Below are positions 29,176-50,763 of a DNA stretch of 64,000 nt, in pieces. Below the pieces are notes generated by a model that did not search any database, was not told the origin of the DNA, and saw only the letters and a list, made by a program, of their open reading frames with translations. This stretch comes from Candidatus Polarisedimenticolaceae bacterium (lineage in GTDB: Bacteria; Acidobacteriota; Polarisedimenticolia; Polarisedimenticolales; DASRJG01), in NCBI GenBank assembly GCA_036376135.1, contig DASVAW010000164.1, positions 62,001-126,000 of the forward strand. The letters are read 5' to 3'. Each line of letters opens with the position of its first letter. Position 1 is the stretch's first letter. Position numbers and translations under genes: made by a program.

Positions 29176-30855
29176 ATGCAGCCGACTGGAGTGTGGATGC
29201 CGCTGGTCCTCGTTCCCCGTCCCCGTCGCATCGACTTCCGGGAGGGGCGCCACGTACCGTCCCGCGAGCCGCTCGAGCCGATCCTCGACCCGACCCTCGA
29301 CGTGAGGGCGCAGGGATACACGCTCGCGATCGAGCCGGGGCGTGTCGTCGCCGTGGCCAGGGACGGCGGCGGGATCCGCAACGCGCGCGCGACCTGGGCG
29401 CAGATCGCGGCGCAGGCGGACTCCGACGGGACGGTGCCGTGCCTTTCGATCGCCGACTGGCCCGACTTCCCGCGACGCGGGGTGATGCTCGACATCAGCC
29501 GCGACAAGGTCCCGACGAACGCGACGCTGAAGGGGCTGATCGATCTCCTCGCGGGATGGAAGGTCAACGAGCTGCAGCTCTACATGGAGCACACCTTCGC
29601 GTACCGCGGGCATCGCGAGGTGTGGGAGCACGCGTCGCCGCTCGACGCCGAGGAGATCGAGGAGCTCGACGCGTATTGCCGCGAGCGGGGGATCGAGCTC
29701 GTTCCCAACCAGAACTCGTTCGGCCACATGGAGCGGTGGCTCGGGCATCCGCGCTACGCCGACCTCGCGGAGGTCCCGTACACCCCGGCGCAGAGGGAGC
29801 AGGGGGAGGATCCCGGGTATCGCAGCCTGTGTCCGGTGGACCCGCGATCGATCGAGCTGATCGCATCGCTTTACCGCGAGCTGCTTCCCTGTTTCACGAG
29901 CGGGGAGCTCAACGTGGGGTGCGACGAGACGATCGACCTCGGCAAGGGCAGGAGCGCCGACGCGGTGGCGCGGCTGGGGGCGGGGAGGGTCTACCTCGAC
30001 TTCCTTCGGCAGATCCACGCCGAGGTCTCGCGCCACCGCAGGACGATGCTCTTCTGGGGGGACATCATCCTGAATCACCCGGACCTGATCCGGGAGCTGC
30101 CCTCCGACGCGATCGCGCTGAACTGGGGGTACGAGGCCGACCATCCCTTCGACGCCGAGGGGAGCAGGTTCGCTCGGGCGGGGATCGCGTATCGCGTCTG
30201 CCCGGGGACGTCCTCGTGGCTGTCGCTGGGCGGGCGGACCGACAACGCGATCGGGAACCTGCGTTCCGCGGCGGAGAACGGGCTGCGCCACGGCGCGGGC
30301 GGGTACTTGATCACCGACTGGGGGGACTTCGGACACTGGCAGCCGCTGCCCGTCTCGTTCCTCGGTCTCGCGTACGGCGCCGCGGTGTCGTGGTGCCTCG
30401 AGGCGAACCGCGATCTGGACCTGCGCGCGGTCGTCGGCGAGACGGCGTACGACCTCGGCAACGTCTACCGGGAGACGGGGGTCGTCCTGAAGAACGCCTC
30501 CGTCCTCGCGATCCTGCTTCTCTTCCCCGATCGGTCGATGACGGAGGGGCGCCTGGCGGAGCTGACGATCGAGGGGCTCGAGCGGGCCGCCGCGGCGATC
30601 CCCCCGACCGACGACCCGGAGCTCGGGCTCGCGGCGAGCCTGATGCGCCACGCCTGCCGCTTCGGCATCGCGCGCAAGCGCGCGCCGGACCACCGGGTCG
30701 AGTCGATCCTCCACGGCGAGCGCCTCGTGCTCGCCTACGATCTCGACCGGATCCTCGCGGAATACCGCCGCCTCTGGCTCACGCGCAATCGCCCCGGCGG
30801 TCTCGACGACAGCGTCGCGCGGATGGAACGGCTGCTGGCGCGTTACCGCGCGTGA
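29176..30855 (+). CDS. Glycoside hydrolase family 20 beta-N-acetylhexosaminidase-like
   Basis: 559 aa. The GH20 catalytic barrel is recognisable from RRGVMLDISRDKVP (residues 100-113) through QLYMEHTFAYRG, PNQNSFGHMERWL and the catalytic Asp-Glu pair D250-E251 in NVGCDETIDLG. GH20 enzymes release terminal N-acetylhexosamines by substrate-assisted catalysis, with the Glu as acid/base. The start at ATG 29176 has no strong Shine-Dalgarno; ATG 29197 is an alternative. No signal peptide is visible, so a cytoplasmic role on imported amino-sugar oligomers is inferred. The stop codon lies inside the first arm of the palindromic element at 30850-30987. Confidence 0.85.
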   Translation: MQPTGVWMPLVLVPRPRRIDFREGRHVPSREPLEPILDPTLDVRAQGYTLAIEPGRVVAVARDGGGIRNARATWAQIAAQADSDGTVPCLSIADWPDFPRRGVMLDISRDKVPTNATLKGLIDLLAGWKVNELQLYMEHTFAYRGHREVWEHASPLDAEEIEELDAYCRERGIELVPNQNSFGHMERWLGHPRYADLAEVPYTPAQREQGEDPGYRSLCPVDPRSIELIASLYRELLPCFTSGELNVGCDETIDLGKGRSADAVARLGAGRVYLDFLRQIHAEVSRHRRTMLFWGDIILNHPDLIRELPSDAIALNWGYEADHPFDAEGSRFARAGIAYRVCPGTSSWLSLGGRTDNAIGNLRSAAENGLRHGAGGYLITDWGDFGHWQPLPVSFLGLAYGAAVSWCLEANRDLDLRAVVGETAYDLGNVYRETGVVLKNASVLAILLLFPDRSMTEGRLAELTIEGLERAAAAIPPTDDPELGLAASLMRHACRFGIARKRAPDHRVESILHGERLVLAYDLDRILAEYRRLWLTRNRPGGLDDSVARMERLLARYRA

Positions 30856-30987
30856 AAATGGGGACAGCAACCCATTTCCAGTAGGGACAGTCACCGTACG
30901 ACCTCAGCCCCGTAACGTGGGCTTTGGGGCTGAGGTCGTACGGTGACTGTCCCTACTGGAAATGGGTTGCTGTCCCCATTTTCACGC
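30850..30987. repeat. Perfect 62-base inverted repeat carrying both neighbours' stop codons
   Basis: Arms 30850-30911 and 30926-30987 are perfectly complementary (62 of 62) around a 14-base centre. Each arm opens with GCGTGAAAATGGGGACAG. GCG-TGA is the last codon plus stop of the plus-strand GH20 gene (TGA 30853-30855), and on the other strand the last codon plus stop of the SDR gene (TGA 30984-30982). It would form a very strong hairpin in either transcript and act as a bidirectional terminator. The GGGGACAG core resembles the repeated extragenic palindromes mobilised by RAYT transposases; no RAYT gene is in the window. Confidence 0.9.
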
Positions 30988-31881
30988 CTGAGCCGCGCGC
31001 CAGCTCGCGAGGTACGTGGCGACCTCGTCGACGAAGCCGCCGTGCCTGGGCTGCCAGCCGAGCAGCCTCACCGCCTTGCGCGAGTCGACGTGCTGATCGA
31101 GGGCGAGGCATTCGGCCATGGGGCCGTACGACTTCGCCGCCTCGGAGATCGTGAGGTGCTCGATCGGTCCCGTGTACCCCGCCGCGCGCGCCGCCGCCCC
31201 GGCCATGCCGTTCACCGTGTGACGGGACCGGTCCGTGAAGTGGAACAACTCGCCGCCGAGCCCGCTCTCGACGGCGCGCACGTACCCTTCCGCGAGGTCG
31301 TCGACGTGGACCATCGCCCAGCGGTTCCGACCGTCGCCCACGACCGACAACCCGCCGGAGACGGCCCCGGCGAAGAGCAGTCCGGTGAGCCCGCCCTGGT
31401 GACCGTACACGAGGCCCGGGCGCAGGACGAGGCCCTTGGCGTGCGTCGCCGCGAGGACGCTGCGCTCGACCTCGGGACGATGGGCGACGAGGGCGGGAGG
31501 GTGCGGGACGCTCGTCTCGTCGACGGCGTCGGTCCCCGTGTCGCCGCTGACCCAGACCCCGCTCGTGTAGACGACCGTCTTGGGGCCGGGACCGTGTTTC
31601 GCCGCGTCGAGCAGCGTCGCGACGGTCGCGCGGTCGAGCGCGACCGTATCGGCCTGGTAGTCGACGGCCGCGTGGATCAGGACCGACGCCGATTCGGCTA
31701 CCGGGCGCCAGATGGAGGCGTCCTGCAAGGTTCCGATCACGGGGCGGATCTCGTTCTCGACGAGCCGGCGCGCCTTCCCTTCGCTGCGGGCGAGTCCGAC
31801 GACCTCGTGCCCGGCGCGCCGGAAGGCCCGCGCGACGTTGTAGCCGATGTAACCGGTGGCGCCGGTGACGAAGACCTTCAT
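30982..31881 (-). CDS. Atypical extended SDR / NAD-dependent epimerase-like protein
   Basis: 299 aa; ATG 31881 with AGGAG upstream. The Rossmann motif TGATGYIG (residues 6-13) is intact, and IHAAVDY plus TVVYTSGVWV match extended SDRs. The catalytic YxxxK position reads HRPEV, so the Tyr and Lys of classical epimerases are missing. That suggests an NmrA-like binding protein or an unusual reductase rather than a sugar epimerase. It is the last gene of a four-gene minus-strand operon (DMT transporter, unknown, FmdB protein, this gene) with gaps of 11-30 bases. Its stop lies in the 62-base palindrome. Confidence 0.8.
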   Translation of the reverse strand: MKVFVTGATGYIGYNVARAFRRAGHEVVGLARSEGKARRLVENEIRPVIGTLQDASIWRPVAESASVLIHAAVDYQADTVALDRATVATLLDAAKHGPGPKTVVYTSGVWVSGDTGTDAVDETSVPHPPALVAHRPEVERSVLAATHAKGLVLRPGLVYGHQGGLTGLLFAGAVSGGLSVVGDGRNRWAMVHVDDLAEGYVRAVESGLGGELFHFTDRSRHTVNGMAGAAARAAGYTGPIEHLTISEAAKSYGPMAECLALDQHVDSRKAVRLLGWQPRHGGFVDEVATYLASWRAAQA

Positions 31882-33955: not shown

Positions 33956-35047
33956 ATGGCGAGCCCCAGCTACCGACCCCCCGACTTCGACCAGCCCCGA
34001 TTCGCCTCCGCTCCCGAGGCGCGGTTCGAGCCGTGCCCCGCGGACGGCGTCCTTCCGGAGGGGTTCTTCTCGACCTCGAATCTCCCGACCTACGTGAAGC
34101 TCTCGGGCCGCTGGGTCATGCCGTCGCGGCCCCGGATGGACTGCGTGATCACCCGGCGAGGCGAGGGTGTCGAGGTGATCGAGCCGCGGCGCCTGAAGCG
34201 GGGCGAGCCCGTGGCCATGGGGGAGCACGAGGACGCGAGCGCGGGAATCTACGTCCACGCCGAGGGGTTCCTCGCCGCGGCGACTCCCGGAGCCGGTGCG
34301 AGCGAGTTCAAGTTCATGTCGACGGAAGTCAGCCGCGAGCGCCCGGTCAACTACGAGACCCTGGCCTGGCGGCTGATCGAGGAGCGCCGGAAGGGCGGCC
34401 ACGTCTTGTGGGTCGCGGGGCCGGCCGTCGTCCACTCCCGCGCGCGCCACGACTTCGAGTGGTTCATCGCGAACGGCTACGTCGGCGCGTTCCTCGCGGG
34501 GAACGCGGTCGCCGTTCACGACATCGAGGCGGCGATCTACGGGACGACTCTCGGGATGGATCACAAGGGGAACCCCACCGAGGGCGGCCACGGCCTGCAC
34601 ATGCGCGCGATCAACCGGATCCGCGCGGTCGGCTCGATCGAGAAGGCCGTCGAGCAGGGGATCGTCCGGAGCGGGATCATGCACGCGCTCGTCGCCAACG
34701 AGGTCCCCTACGTGCTCGCGGGCTCGATCCGCGACGACGGCCCGCTTCCCGGAGTTTACAGCGACGGCCAGGCGGCGCAGGACGCGATGCGCGAGCACGC
34801 GGTGAAGGCGACGGGGGCGATCTTCATCGCGACCGCGCTCCACGCGATCGCCGTCGGAAACATGCTCCCCGCGTTCCATTGCCACTACGACGGCGTCCCG
34901 ACCGAGCTGATGACGATCTGCGTGGACCAGACCGAGTTCGTCGTCAACAAGCTCAAGGACCGCGGAACCCACCAGGCCTACGGCGTCGTCACCAACGCCC
35001 AGGACTTCATGCACGTCCTGCGGCTGTTCGTCGAGAAGCTGCATTAA
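33956..35047 (+). CDS. LOR/SDH-domain protein (TIGR00300 type), possible ornithine cyclodeaminase
   Basis: 363 aa from ATG 33956. The sequence matches the LOR/SDH bifunctional-enzyme conserved domain (TIGR00300) throughout: EGFFSTSNLPTYVKL, RPRMDCVITRRG, VLWVAGPAVVHSRARHDFEW, FLAGNAVAVHDIEAAIYGT, GMDHKGNPTEGGHGLHMRAIN and TNAQDFMHVLRLF. In cyanobacterial AgrE/ArgZ this domain follows an arginine dihydrolase domain; stand-alone archaeal homologues act as NAD-dependent ornithine cyclodeaminases (ornithine to proline). Here it stands alone, so an ornithine-to-proline role is plausible. It shares a 16-base gap with the divergent DMT gene. Its TAA starts the palindrome at 35045. Confidence 0.8.
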   Translation: MASPSYRPPDFDQPRFASAPEARFEPCPADGVLPEGFFSTSNLPTYVKLSGRWVMPSRPRMDCVITRRGEGVEVIEPRRLKRGEPVAMGEHEDASAGIYVHAEGFLAAATPGAGASEFKFMSTEVSRERPVNYETLAWRLIEERRKGGHVLWVAGPAVVHSRARHDFEWFIANGYVGAFLAGNAVAVHDIEAAIYGTTLGMDHKGNPTEGGHGLHMRAINRIRAVGSIEKAVEQGIVRSGIMHALVANEVPYVLAGSIRDDGPLPGVYSDGQAAQDAMREHAVKATGAIFIATALHAIAVGNMLPAFHCHYDGVPTELMTICVDQTEFVVNKLKDRGTHQAYGVVTNAQDFMHVLRLFVEKLH

Positions 35048-35131
35048 GAGGGGACTGTCCCTCTTTTCCCCTCCGACCCCGAAGGCGCCTGTTACGGGGT
35101 CGGAGGGGAAAAGAGGGACTGTCCCCCCTTA
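35045..35131. repeat. Palindromic element with mirrored TAA stop codons
   Basis: Arms 35045-35080 and 35096-35131 (36 bases, two mismatches) flank a 15-base centre. Both arms begin with TAA. On the plus strand this is the stop of the LOR/SDH gene (35045-35047); on the minus strand it is the stop of the permease gene (35131-35129). The core GGGGAC(A/T)GTCCC is shared in style with the element at 30850. It probably works as a bidirectional terminator. Confidence 0.88.
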
Positions 35132-36331
35132 CTCCGCGCGCAGCGCCTCGACCGGATCCAGCGACGCCGCGCGCCGCGCCGGGAGCGCGCCGCTGGCGAG
35201 CCCGACCACGACGCTGACGGCGATCGCCGCGACGACGAAGGTGAGCGGAGTGACGACCGGCAGCGCGGGCACCGCGAGTCGCAGCGCGCGGGCGATCCCC
35301 ATCCCCGTGGCGACGCCGATCGCGCCGCCGGCGCCGGCGAGGAGCGCGGCTTCGGTGAGGAACAACGCGAGGACCTGACGGCGGCCCGCCCCCAGCGCGA
35401 TGGCGAGTCCGATCTCGGAGGTTCGCTCGCTGACCGAGATCCACATCATCGTGAGGATCCCCAGCGCGCCGACGAGGAGCGAGATCCCGCCGATCCCGCC
35501 GACCGCGACGTTGACGATGTCCATCACGCGCCCGAGGACCGAGATCATCTCGTCCTGCGTGACGATCGTGAAGTCCTCCTCGCCGTCGTGGCGGGCGAGC
35601 ATGACGCGACGGATCCCCTCGGCGACCTCGGCGGAGGATCGGCGCTCGTCGAACAACACGTCGATCTCGACGAGCTCGTCCCGGTTGAACGCCTTGAGGG
35701 CGCGGCCGATGGGGATGTAGGCGGTGTCGTCCAGGTCGAAGGAGAGGAACCGCCCCTTCGGCTCGAGGATCCCGATCACCTGGTAGCGGTCGCCGCCGAT
35801 CCGCACGTAGCGGCCGAGGGCGTTCTCGTCGCCGAAGAGCTCCTTCCTGAGCTTCTGGCCGAGGACCGCGACGGGGGCGCCCCGCCGGGGGTCGGAGGGG
35901 GGAATGAACCGTCCCTGGCGCACGCCGAACTTCCAGACCTCGGGGACGGCGTCGTTGACGCCGTAGACGTAGACGCTCCGCCCGCGCGGCCCGTTCTCGA
36001 CGCGCGCCATGCCCAGGGCGAGCGGCACCACGCGCTTCACCCCCGGCACGCGCTCGAGGGCGAGGGCGTCCTCGACGGTCAGCTTCTTCACGGTGCTCAC
36101 GACCGAGCCCGGGACGCCGGTGGTCTTGATCTTCCCCGGGGTGACGGCGAGCAGGTTGGTCCCGAACTGCGTGAACTCCGCGAGGATGAACGTGCGCGTC
36201 CCCTCGCCGATGGAGGTCAGGAGGATCACCGAGGCGATCCCGATGACGATGCCGAGGGTGGTCAGTCCCGAACGCAGGCGGTGGGCCGCGATCGAGCCCC
36301 AGGCGAGGCGGAAGAGGTCGCGAATCCGCAC
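35129..36331 (-). CDS. MacB/FtsX-type ABC transporter permease (orphan copy)
   Basis: 400 aa. An N-terminal TM helix (SGLTTLGIVIGIASVILLTSIGEGT), a periplasmic MacB_PCD domain (about 50-250) and a C-terminal FtsX domain with three TM helices (LVGALGILTMMWISVSERTSEIGLAIALG) give the standard topology. Such permeases work with a separate ATPase and a periplasmic adaptor in export or mechanotransmission. No ATPase is adjacent. A clearly paralogous permease with its ATPase and adaptor starts at 41608, beyond the intervening subtilase, so this may be a duplicated subunit of the same exporter. Confidence 0.9.
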   Translation of the reverse strand: MRIRDLFRLAWGSIAAHRLRSGLTTLGIVIGIASVILLTSIGEGTRTFILAEFTQFGTNLLAVTPGKIKTTGVPGSVVSTVKKLTVEDALALERVPGVKRVVPLALGMARVENGPRGRSVYVYGVNDAVPEVWKFGVRQGRFIPPSDPRRGAPVAVLGQKLRKELFGDENALGRYVRIGGDRYQVIGILEPKGRFLSFDLDDTAYIPIGRALKAFNRDELVEIDVLFDERRSSAEVAEGIRRVMLARHDGEEDFTIVTQDEMISVLGRVMDIVNVAVGGIGGISLLVGALGILTMMWISVSERTSEIGLAIALGAGRRQVLALFLTEAALLAGAGGAIGVATGMGIARALRLAVPALPVVTPLTFVVAAIAVSVVVGLASGALPARRAASLDPVEALRAE

Positions 36332-40323: not shown

Positions 40324-40405
40324 CGAAAAGGGGTCAGGCCCCTTTTTCTTCTAAAGTCGATCGGCCCGCGACTTTGGAAGAGAAAGGGGCCTGACCCCTT
40401 TTTTA
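40321..40405. repeat. Palindromic element between subtilase and permease genes
   Basis: Arms 40326-40359 and 40369-40402 pair over 34 bases, with two G-T-type mismatches and a 9-base centre. The core is AAAAGGGGTCAGGCCCCTTT. The subtilase stop (TAA 40321-40323) and the permease stop (TAA, 40405-40403 on minus) lie immediately outside the two arms, offset by two bases from exact mirror symmetry. It is a probable bidirectional terminator, related by core sequence to the short copy at 50740. Confidence 0.85.
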
Positions 40406-50739: not shown

Positions 50740-50763
50740 AGAAAAAGGGGCCTGACCCCTTTA
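50740..50763. repeat. Short palindromic element, half-size copy
   Basis: AAAAAGGGGCCTGACCCCTTT between the POT transporter stop (TGA 50735-50737, then in-frame TAA) and the stop of the pterin dehydratase gene (TAA, 50763-50761 on minus). Read on the minus strand it is TAAAGGGGTCAGGCCCC, the same core as the element at 40321. It can form a 6-8-base hairpin. It is a probable bidirectional terminator. Confidence 0.8.

Follow-up and report, generated by a model that had tools for sequence, protein, structure and literature searches.

A long palindrome at the mirrored stop codons of two convergent genes: a probable transposase-associated repeat

The palindrome and its flanking genes

Two convergent genes meet at a perfect palindrome in the 64,000-nucleotide stretch of DNA analysed here (the window). 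The left gene (29176-30855, forward strand) encodes a protein of 559 residues resembling glycoside hydrolase family 20 (GH20; PF00728, E 8e-16). The right gene (30982-31881, reverse strand), whose start was assigned by a codon model, encodes a member of the NAD-dependent epimerase family (PF01370, E 2e-19). Between them lie three elements: the left arm (30850-30911, forward strand); a 14-nt loop, GTAACGTGGGCTTT (30912-30925), which resembles the loops of other family copies; and the right arm (30926-30987, reverse strand), the mirror of the left. The first-pass annotation had described arms matching at 62 of 62 bases, and this description is exact: an inverted-repeat search returned the same two arms, 100% complementary and 14 nt apart. 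The left arm comprises two recognizable repeat units. The outer unit, REP-A (AAATGGGGACAGCAACCCATTT, 30856-30877, forward strand), forms a small hairpin by itself and also flanks a transposase gene, L031, discussed below; the second unit, REP-B, reads GTAGGGACAGTCACC (30881-30895, forward strand).

Both genes end GCG TGA. In the left gene these codons occupy 30850-30855, with the stop (30853-30855, forward strand) inside the edge of the left arm; the stop of the right gene (30982-30984, reverse strand; TCA on the forward strand) holds the mirrored position in the edge of the right arm. The mirrored endings recorded at first pass are therefore true by sequence, and the Pfam matches back both genes. 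RNA folding likewise returned the anticipated single hairpin, with a predicted energy of -138.6 kcal/mol against -49.4 +/- 3.7 for shuffled sequences (z -23.8). AAAA and UUUU stand at the hairpin base on both strands. An Rfam search gave no match.

A repeat family at convergent gene ends

The family was analysed through pattern searches of the genome and in 40 fetched regions, picked around elements, in which genes were called with our own codon model. About 50 sites of this kind, made of GGGACAG repeats, are present in the genome. The 20-base outer unit (REP-A) has 46 genome matches at up to two mismatches, mostly in inverted pairs, and a looser motif, WRGGGACAGNNMCY, occurs 120 times, versus once for a reversed-pattern control. 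The fetched regions contain 46 repeat clusters. A long arm consists of two tandem repeat units and a short core stem, with unit order and linkers varying from copy to copy, and the arms form near-perfect hairpins of 25-77 nt. A second member lies within the window itself (35045-35131), between convergent genes at 33956-35047 (forward strand) and 35129-36331 (reverse strand), with TAA stops mirrored at its two edges.

A separate repeat family, AAAGGGGTCAGGCCCCTTT, has about 38 sites, including the convergent junctions at 40326-40402 and 50743-50763 of the window; it also flanks a second Y1 transposase gene (L032). Of the window's eight convergent junctions, four are occupied by one or other family. 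Several contig ends (C61, C63, C90, C112, C133, C161, and C172) lie within about 80 bases of a repeat copy, and probably represent assembly breaks.

Within the 40 fetched regions, 29 of 40 junctions with an element are convergent, versus 14 of 176 other junctions (Fisher p 1e-16); copies occur at tandem and divergent junctions too. Twenty convergent copies have paired arms and an assigned stop on each side; in 17 of them neither stop lies more than 11 nt from the outermost GGGACAG, and in the other three one stop is off the edge. The possibility raised earlier, that most copies lie away from stop codons, is thus not what the genome-wide comparison reveals. Stops fall mostly inside the repeat's own A/T-rich edge, and their distance from the outer GGGACAG takes one of three values on 30 of 40 sides: 2, the TAG of TAGGGACAG; 6, the TAA of TAAATRGGG; and 8, the TGA of TGAAAATRGGG. 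The palindrome at 30850-30987 has offsets of 8 and 8. Both sides share one offset in nine of 20 copies, versus 3.7 expected by shuffling (p 0.0017). Identical mirrored stops are therefore real, but less surprising than first claimed, because the element carries one stop-bearing edge twice, in inverted orientation, at its two ends.

The first-pass annotation further proposed that the element defines the ends of both genes. Orthologues of 27 flanking gene ends were compared in one genome of a sister genus (G001), and this proposal was not borne out. The orthologous stop holds the identical position in ten of the 27; its displacement is at most one codon in 17, at most three in 23, and at most seven in all 27. 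Twenty orthologous ends have no repeat motif within 60 nt. The other seven were flagged: six with GGGACAG-type repeats, and one (the left end at L084) with a weak match to GGGGTCAG. For one convergent pair (L096) the orthologous junction is empty, its stops standing four bases apart (TAG CGCG TCA). The orthologous stops and this empty junction together indicate that repeats land where convergent genes in close proximity already have their stops, replacing the stop or merging with it. For six of the 27 genes, such a repeat is present at the corresponding end in each of the two genera, with differing repeat sequence, which suggests either old occupation or repeated use of sites. One convergent pair, seen at L103 (G000) and at L234/L239 (G001), has a palindromic repeat in each genus, again with differing sequences.

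The associated transposase and class membership

Genes for IS200-like transposases of the Y1 (HUH) type were found in two fetched regions, L031 and L032 (PF01797, 54-56 bits). The L031 gene stands between inverted copies of the palindrome's outer unit (TTAAATAGGGACAGCAAC at 1296, inverted at 2199). Each of the two convergent neighbours has AAA TAG as its last codons, lying within AAATAGGGACAG, so this full-length element is arranged like the small palindromes. The sister genome encodes a transposase of 46% identity, on either side of which stands a variant of the repeat particular to that genome (GGGGACAGTAACC); the motif occurs there 82 times. Among other relatives, motif counts stay at background, except in one with a different repeat (G043) and one with a weak excess (G006). 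The repeat in G043, a distant member of the same phylum, forms a separate family, with 99 motifs of the GGGACAGACCCT type versus 18 in the control. Transposase relatives in other phyla (L111, L113, L114, and L115) have inverted AAAGGGGACGCTACCCTTT-like flanks: the same design in other letters.

Judged by sequence, these data support the earlier suggestion of an inserted, repeated element: the GGGACAG sites, and a transposase with the same inverted ends, would place the palindrome with non-autonomous repeats of the TIRYT/RAYT kind. TIRYTs, or TIRtrons, are RAYT-like tyrosine transposases with terminal inverted repeats, the motif GGGGWSAS, and dispersed repeat families (PMC3733652). The present system shares with them a Y1 transposase set in inverted repeats that carry this motif, and dispersed families, often as dimers. 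Palindrome copies contain GGGGWSAS as GGGGACAG (or the variant AGGGACAG), and the second family contains it as GGGGTCAG; the terminal inverted repeats at L031 read AGGGACAG, one base away from the motif. What sets the present family apart are its arms, which nest two units, form near-perfect hairpins, and co-vary into gene ends.

The TIRYT/TIRtron group probably corresponds to subclass 2.1, whose members have a C-terminal HTH or DnaA-C-like domain (PMC6006769). A Pfam scan of the present transposases, at E values up to 1, identified Y1_Tnp and no C-terminal HTH domain; about 100 residues extend beyond Y1_Tnp. Against the RAYT equivalog NF047646 (REP_Tyr_transpos), both transposases score just below the curated NCBIfam cut-off of 80 bits, at 70.6 and 77.1.

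GTAG REPs, the termini of which often provide flanking ORFs with a TAG stop (PMC3733652), offer a second comparison. As in these, and in REPINs and BIMEs, copies of the present family form inverted pairs at convergent or tandem gene junctions; unlike these, the family has both stops mirrored and long perfect arms. It also has no consistent outer GTAG tag: the outer foot of the hairpin reads AAATRGGG, not GT[AG]G, in most copies, and the window copy has GTAG in its inner unit.

Likeness of the arms and competing explanations

Arms are 93% identical within a copy versus 71% between copies, and in 24 of 26 cases an arm is most closely related to its partner in that copy. This likeness extends to the edges. 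Over positions -2 to -12, partner edges match 203 times, versus 149 for re-paired edges (permutation p 5e-5); over positions -6 to -12, which lie outside the conserved repeat and partly in coding sequence, matching is 0.37-0.78 within a copy versus 0.25-0.40 between copies. The arms thus match past the family-conserved part and into gene codons, so that copying from arm to arm, as suggested at first pass, is favoured by both the edge and the arm statistics. Mismatches between arms increase toward the loop: 1/286, 7/234, and 47/234. The first value, for the outermost 22 nt, is lowered in part by the way copies were found, namely by that motif, whereas the other two are unbiased. Such an increase is predicted by outward copying from a seeded hairpin. 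Among 51 pairs, 21 are altered on both sides with pairing kept. Finally, two divergent junctions, L105:2948-3053 and L221:1477-1574 (G001), have identical mirrored leaders in which the palindrome reaches both start codons; these leaders extend about 20-29 bases past the repeat, as nowhere else among the fetched loci.

Outward template switching could explain all of these: the likeness within copies, the mismatch gradient, and the mirrored leaders. Template switching at quasipalindromes makes the arms of inverted repeats identical, coding sequence included (PMC8794818, PMC8604942). The parallel lies in one arm being copied from the other, also within coding sequence; the difference is that here the process would be family-wide and would reach the stops of two genes, a reading drawn from sequence comparison. 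Exonucleases I and VII are known to restrict switching at quasipalindromes.

The most probable explanation, then, is that the palindrome is a non-autonomous repeat copy of the TIRYT/RAYT kind, situated at stop codons, with arms homogenised by copying. The repeat family is linked with a REP-associated transposase of the IS200-like (Y1) type, each arm comprising two tandem GGGACAG units around a short core hairpin. Copies lie at stop codons, mostly where convergent genes end a few bases apart. There, the A/T-rich edge (TAGGGACAG, TAAATRGGG, or TGAAAATRGGG) would become, or merge with, each stop, hardly altering protein length; with inverted ends, both genes would tend toward the same terminal letters. 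After insertion, arm-to-arm copying would keep the arms alike, most likely through polymerase template switching in the hairpin. Copying would proceed outward from the loop, and may transfer a few terminal bases from one gene to its neighbour. The sequence data show the family, its link to the transposase, its location, the stops at the edges, the concordance of the arms, and the stop positions of the orthologues; we infer that the element is mobile, that template switching is responsible for the copying, and whatever role the hairpin may have as a terminator.

A bolder version, advanced only tentatively, is that palindromic repeats copy in both directions at gene junctions. Time and again, template switches in the hairpin during replication would replace the end of a gene with the mirror image of its neighbour, so that the ends of unrelated neighbours evolve in concert. 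This would cover the stop and last codons and, at divergent junctions, the start codon and leader.

Arm identity might instead have another origin, and hairpin selection or recent copying of ready symmetric elements are possible causes. Stated in full, copies would be inserted already symmetric; selection on the hairpin, for transposase recognition or RNA function, would purge mismatches; and mirrored stops would simply be inverted ends read in whichever frame arrives at them. Stops at fixed positions in the repeat edge agree with such an origin, as does the fact that the outer repeat is the best-matched part, and the 21 compensated pairs fit selection too. Matching within a copy over positions -6 to -12, a stretch that is not conserved across the family, speaks against it, however, as do the mirrored leaders at L105 and L221 (G001), and we consider it rather unlikely. 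Less likely again is that the target was itself a short palindrome (a bidirectional terminator of the host, or convergent stops that overlap) into the centre of which the element inserted, so that the mirrored edges are host sequence. Insertions do favour convergent junctions with close stops, and the one clearly empty junction, that of the L096 pair in G001, has stops just four bases apart; yet this junction contains no long palindrome, and the edge letters match the element's A-rich pattern.

The least probable of these alternatives is that the hairpin is a non-mobile bidirectional transcription terminator of the host, maintained by selection. Its great stability, the A and U runs at its base on both strands, the strong convergent bias, and the gene ends occupied in both genera all accord with a terminator. 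Opposed to this are a repeat sequence common to about 50 sites, with identical ends around a transposase, and the presence of copies at tandem and divergent junctions. Moreover, a scan for sigma-70 promoters and terminators found nothing: there were no terminator-like sites and no canonical intrinsic terminator. Where a U-tract would follow the GC stem, the stem base has only four A/U.

The kind of element is known: TIRYT-type transposases, dispersed repeat families, and GTAG REPs giving TAG stops have been described (PMC3733652, PMC6006769), and the present system agrees with the TIRYT description in motif, transposase, and flanking layout. What is new is the nesting of units in near-perfect arms, the genome-wide regularity of mirrored stops, and the agreement between arms as far as the gene ends. 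Repeats of an established transposase-associated class are here connected with the way gene ends evolve. Should arm copying extend into coding sequence, neighbouring genes can swap their stops and last residues, and a single genome with dozens of copies makes this testable through strain comparison. Further, compensatory changes in such hairpins need not imply selection on RNA.

Two other lines of evidence were set aside. Loop orientation was rejected as a sign of spacer inversion, because a symmetric element has no alternative orientation for comparison. One locus (L107) was considered as a native gene end copied to the other gene; it was dropped as proof, since the G001 orthologue apparently has a repeat there. 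At L082, a further divergent junction, the arm edge reads TATGAT/TATCAT and both start codons are equidistant from the arms.
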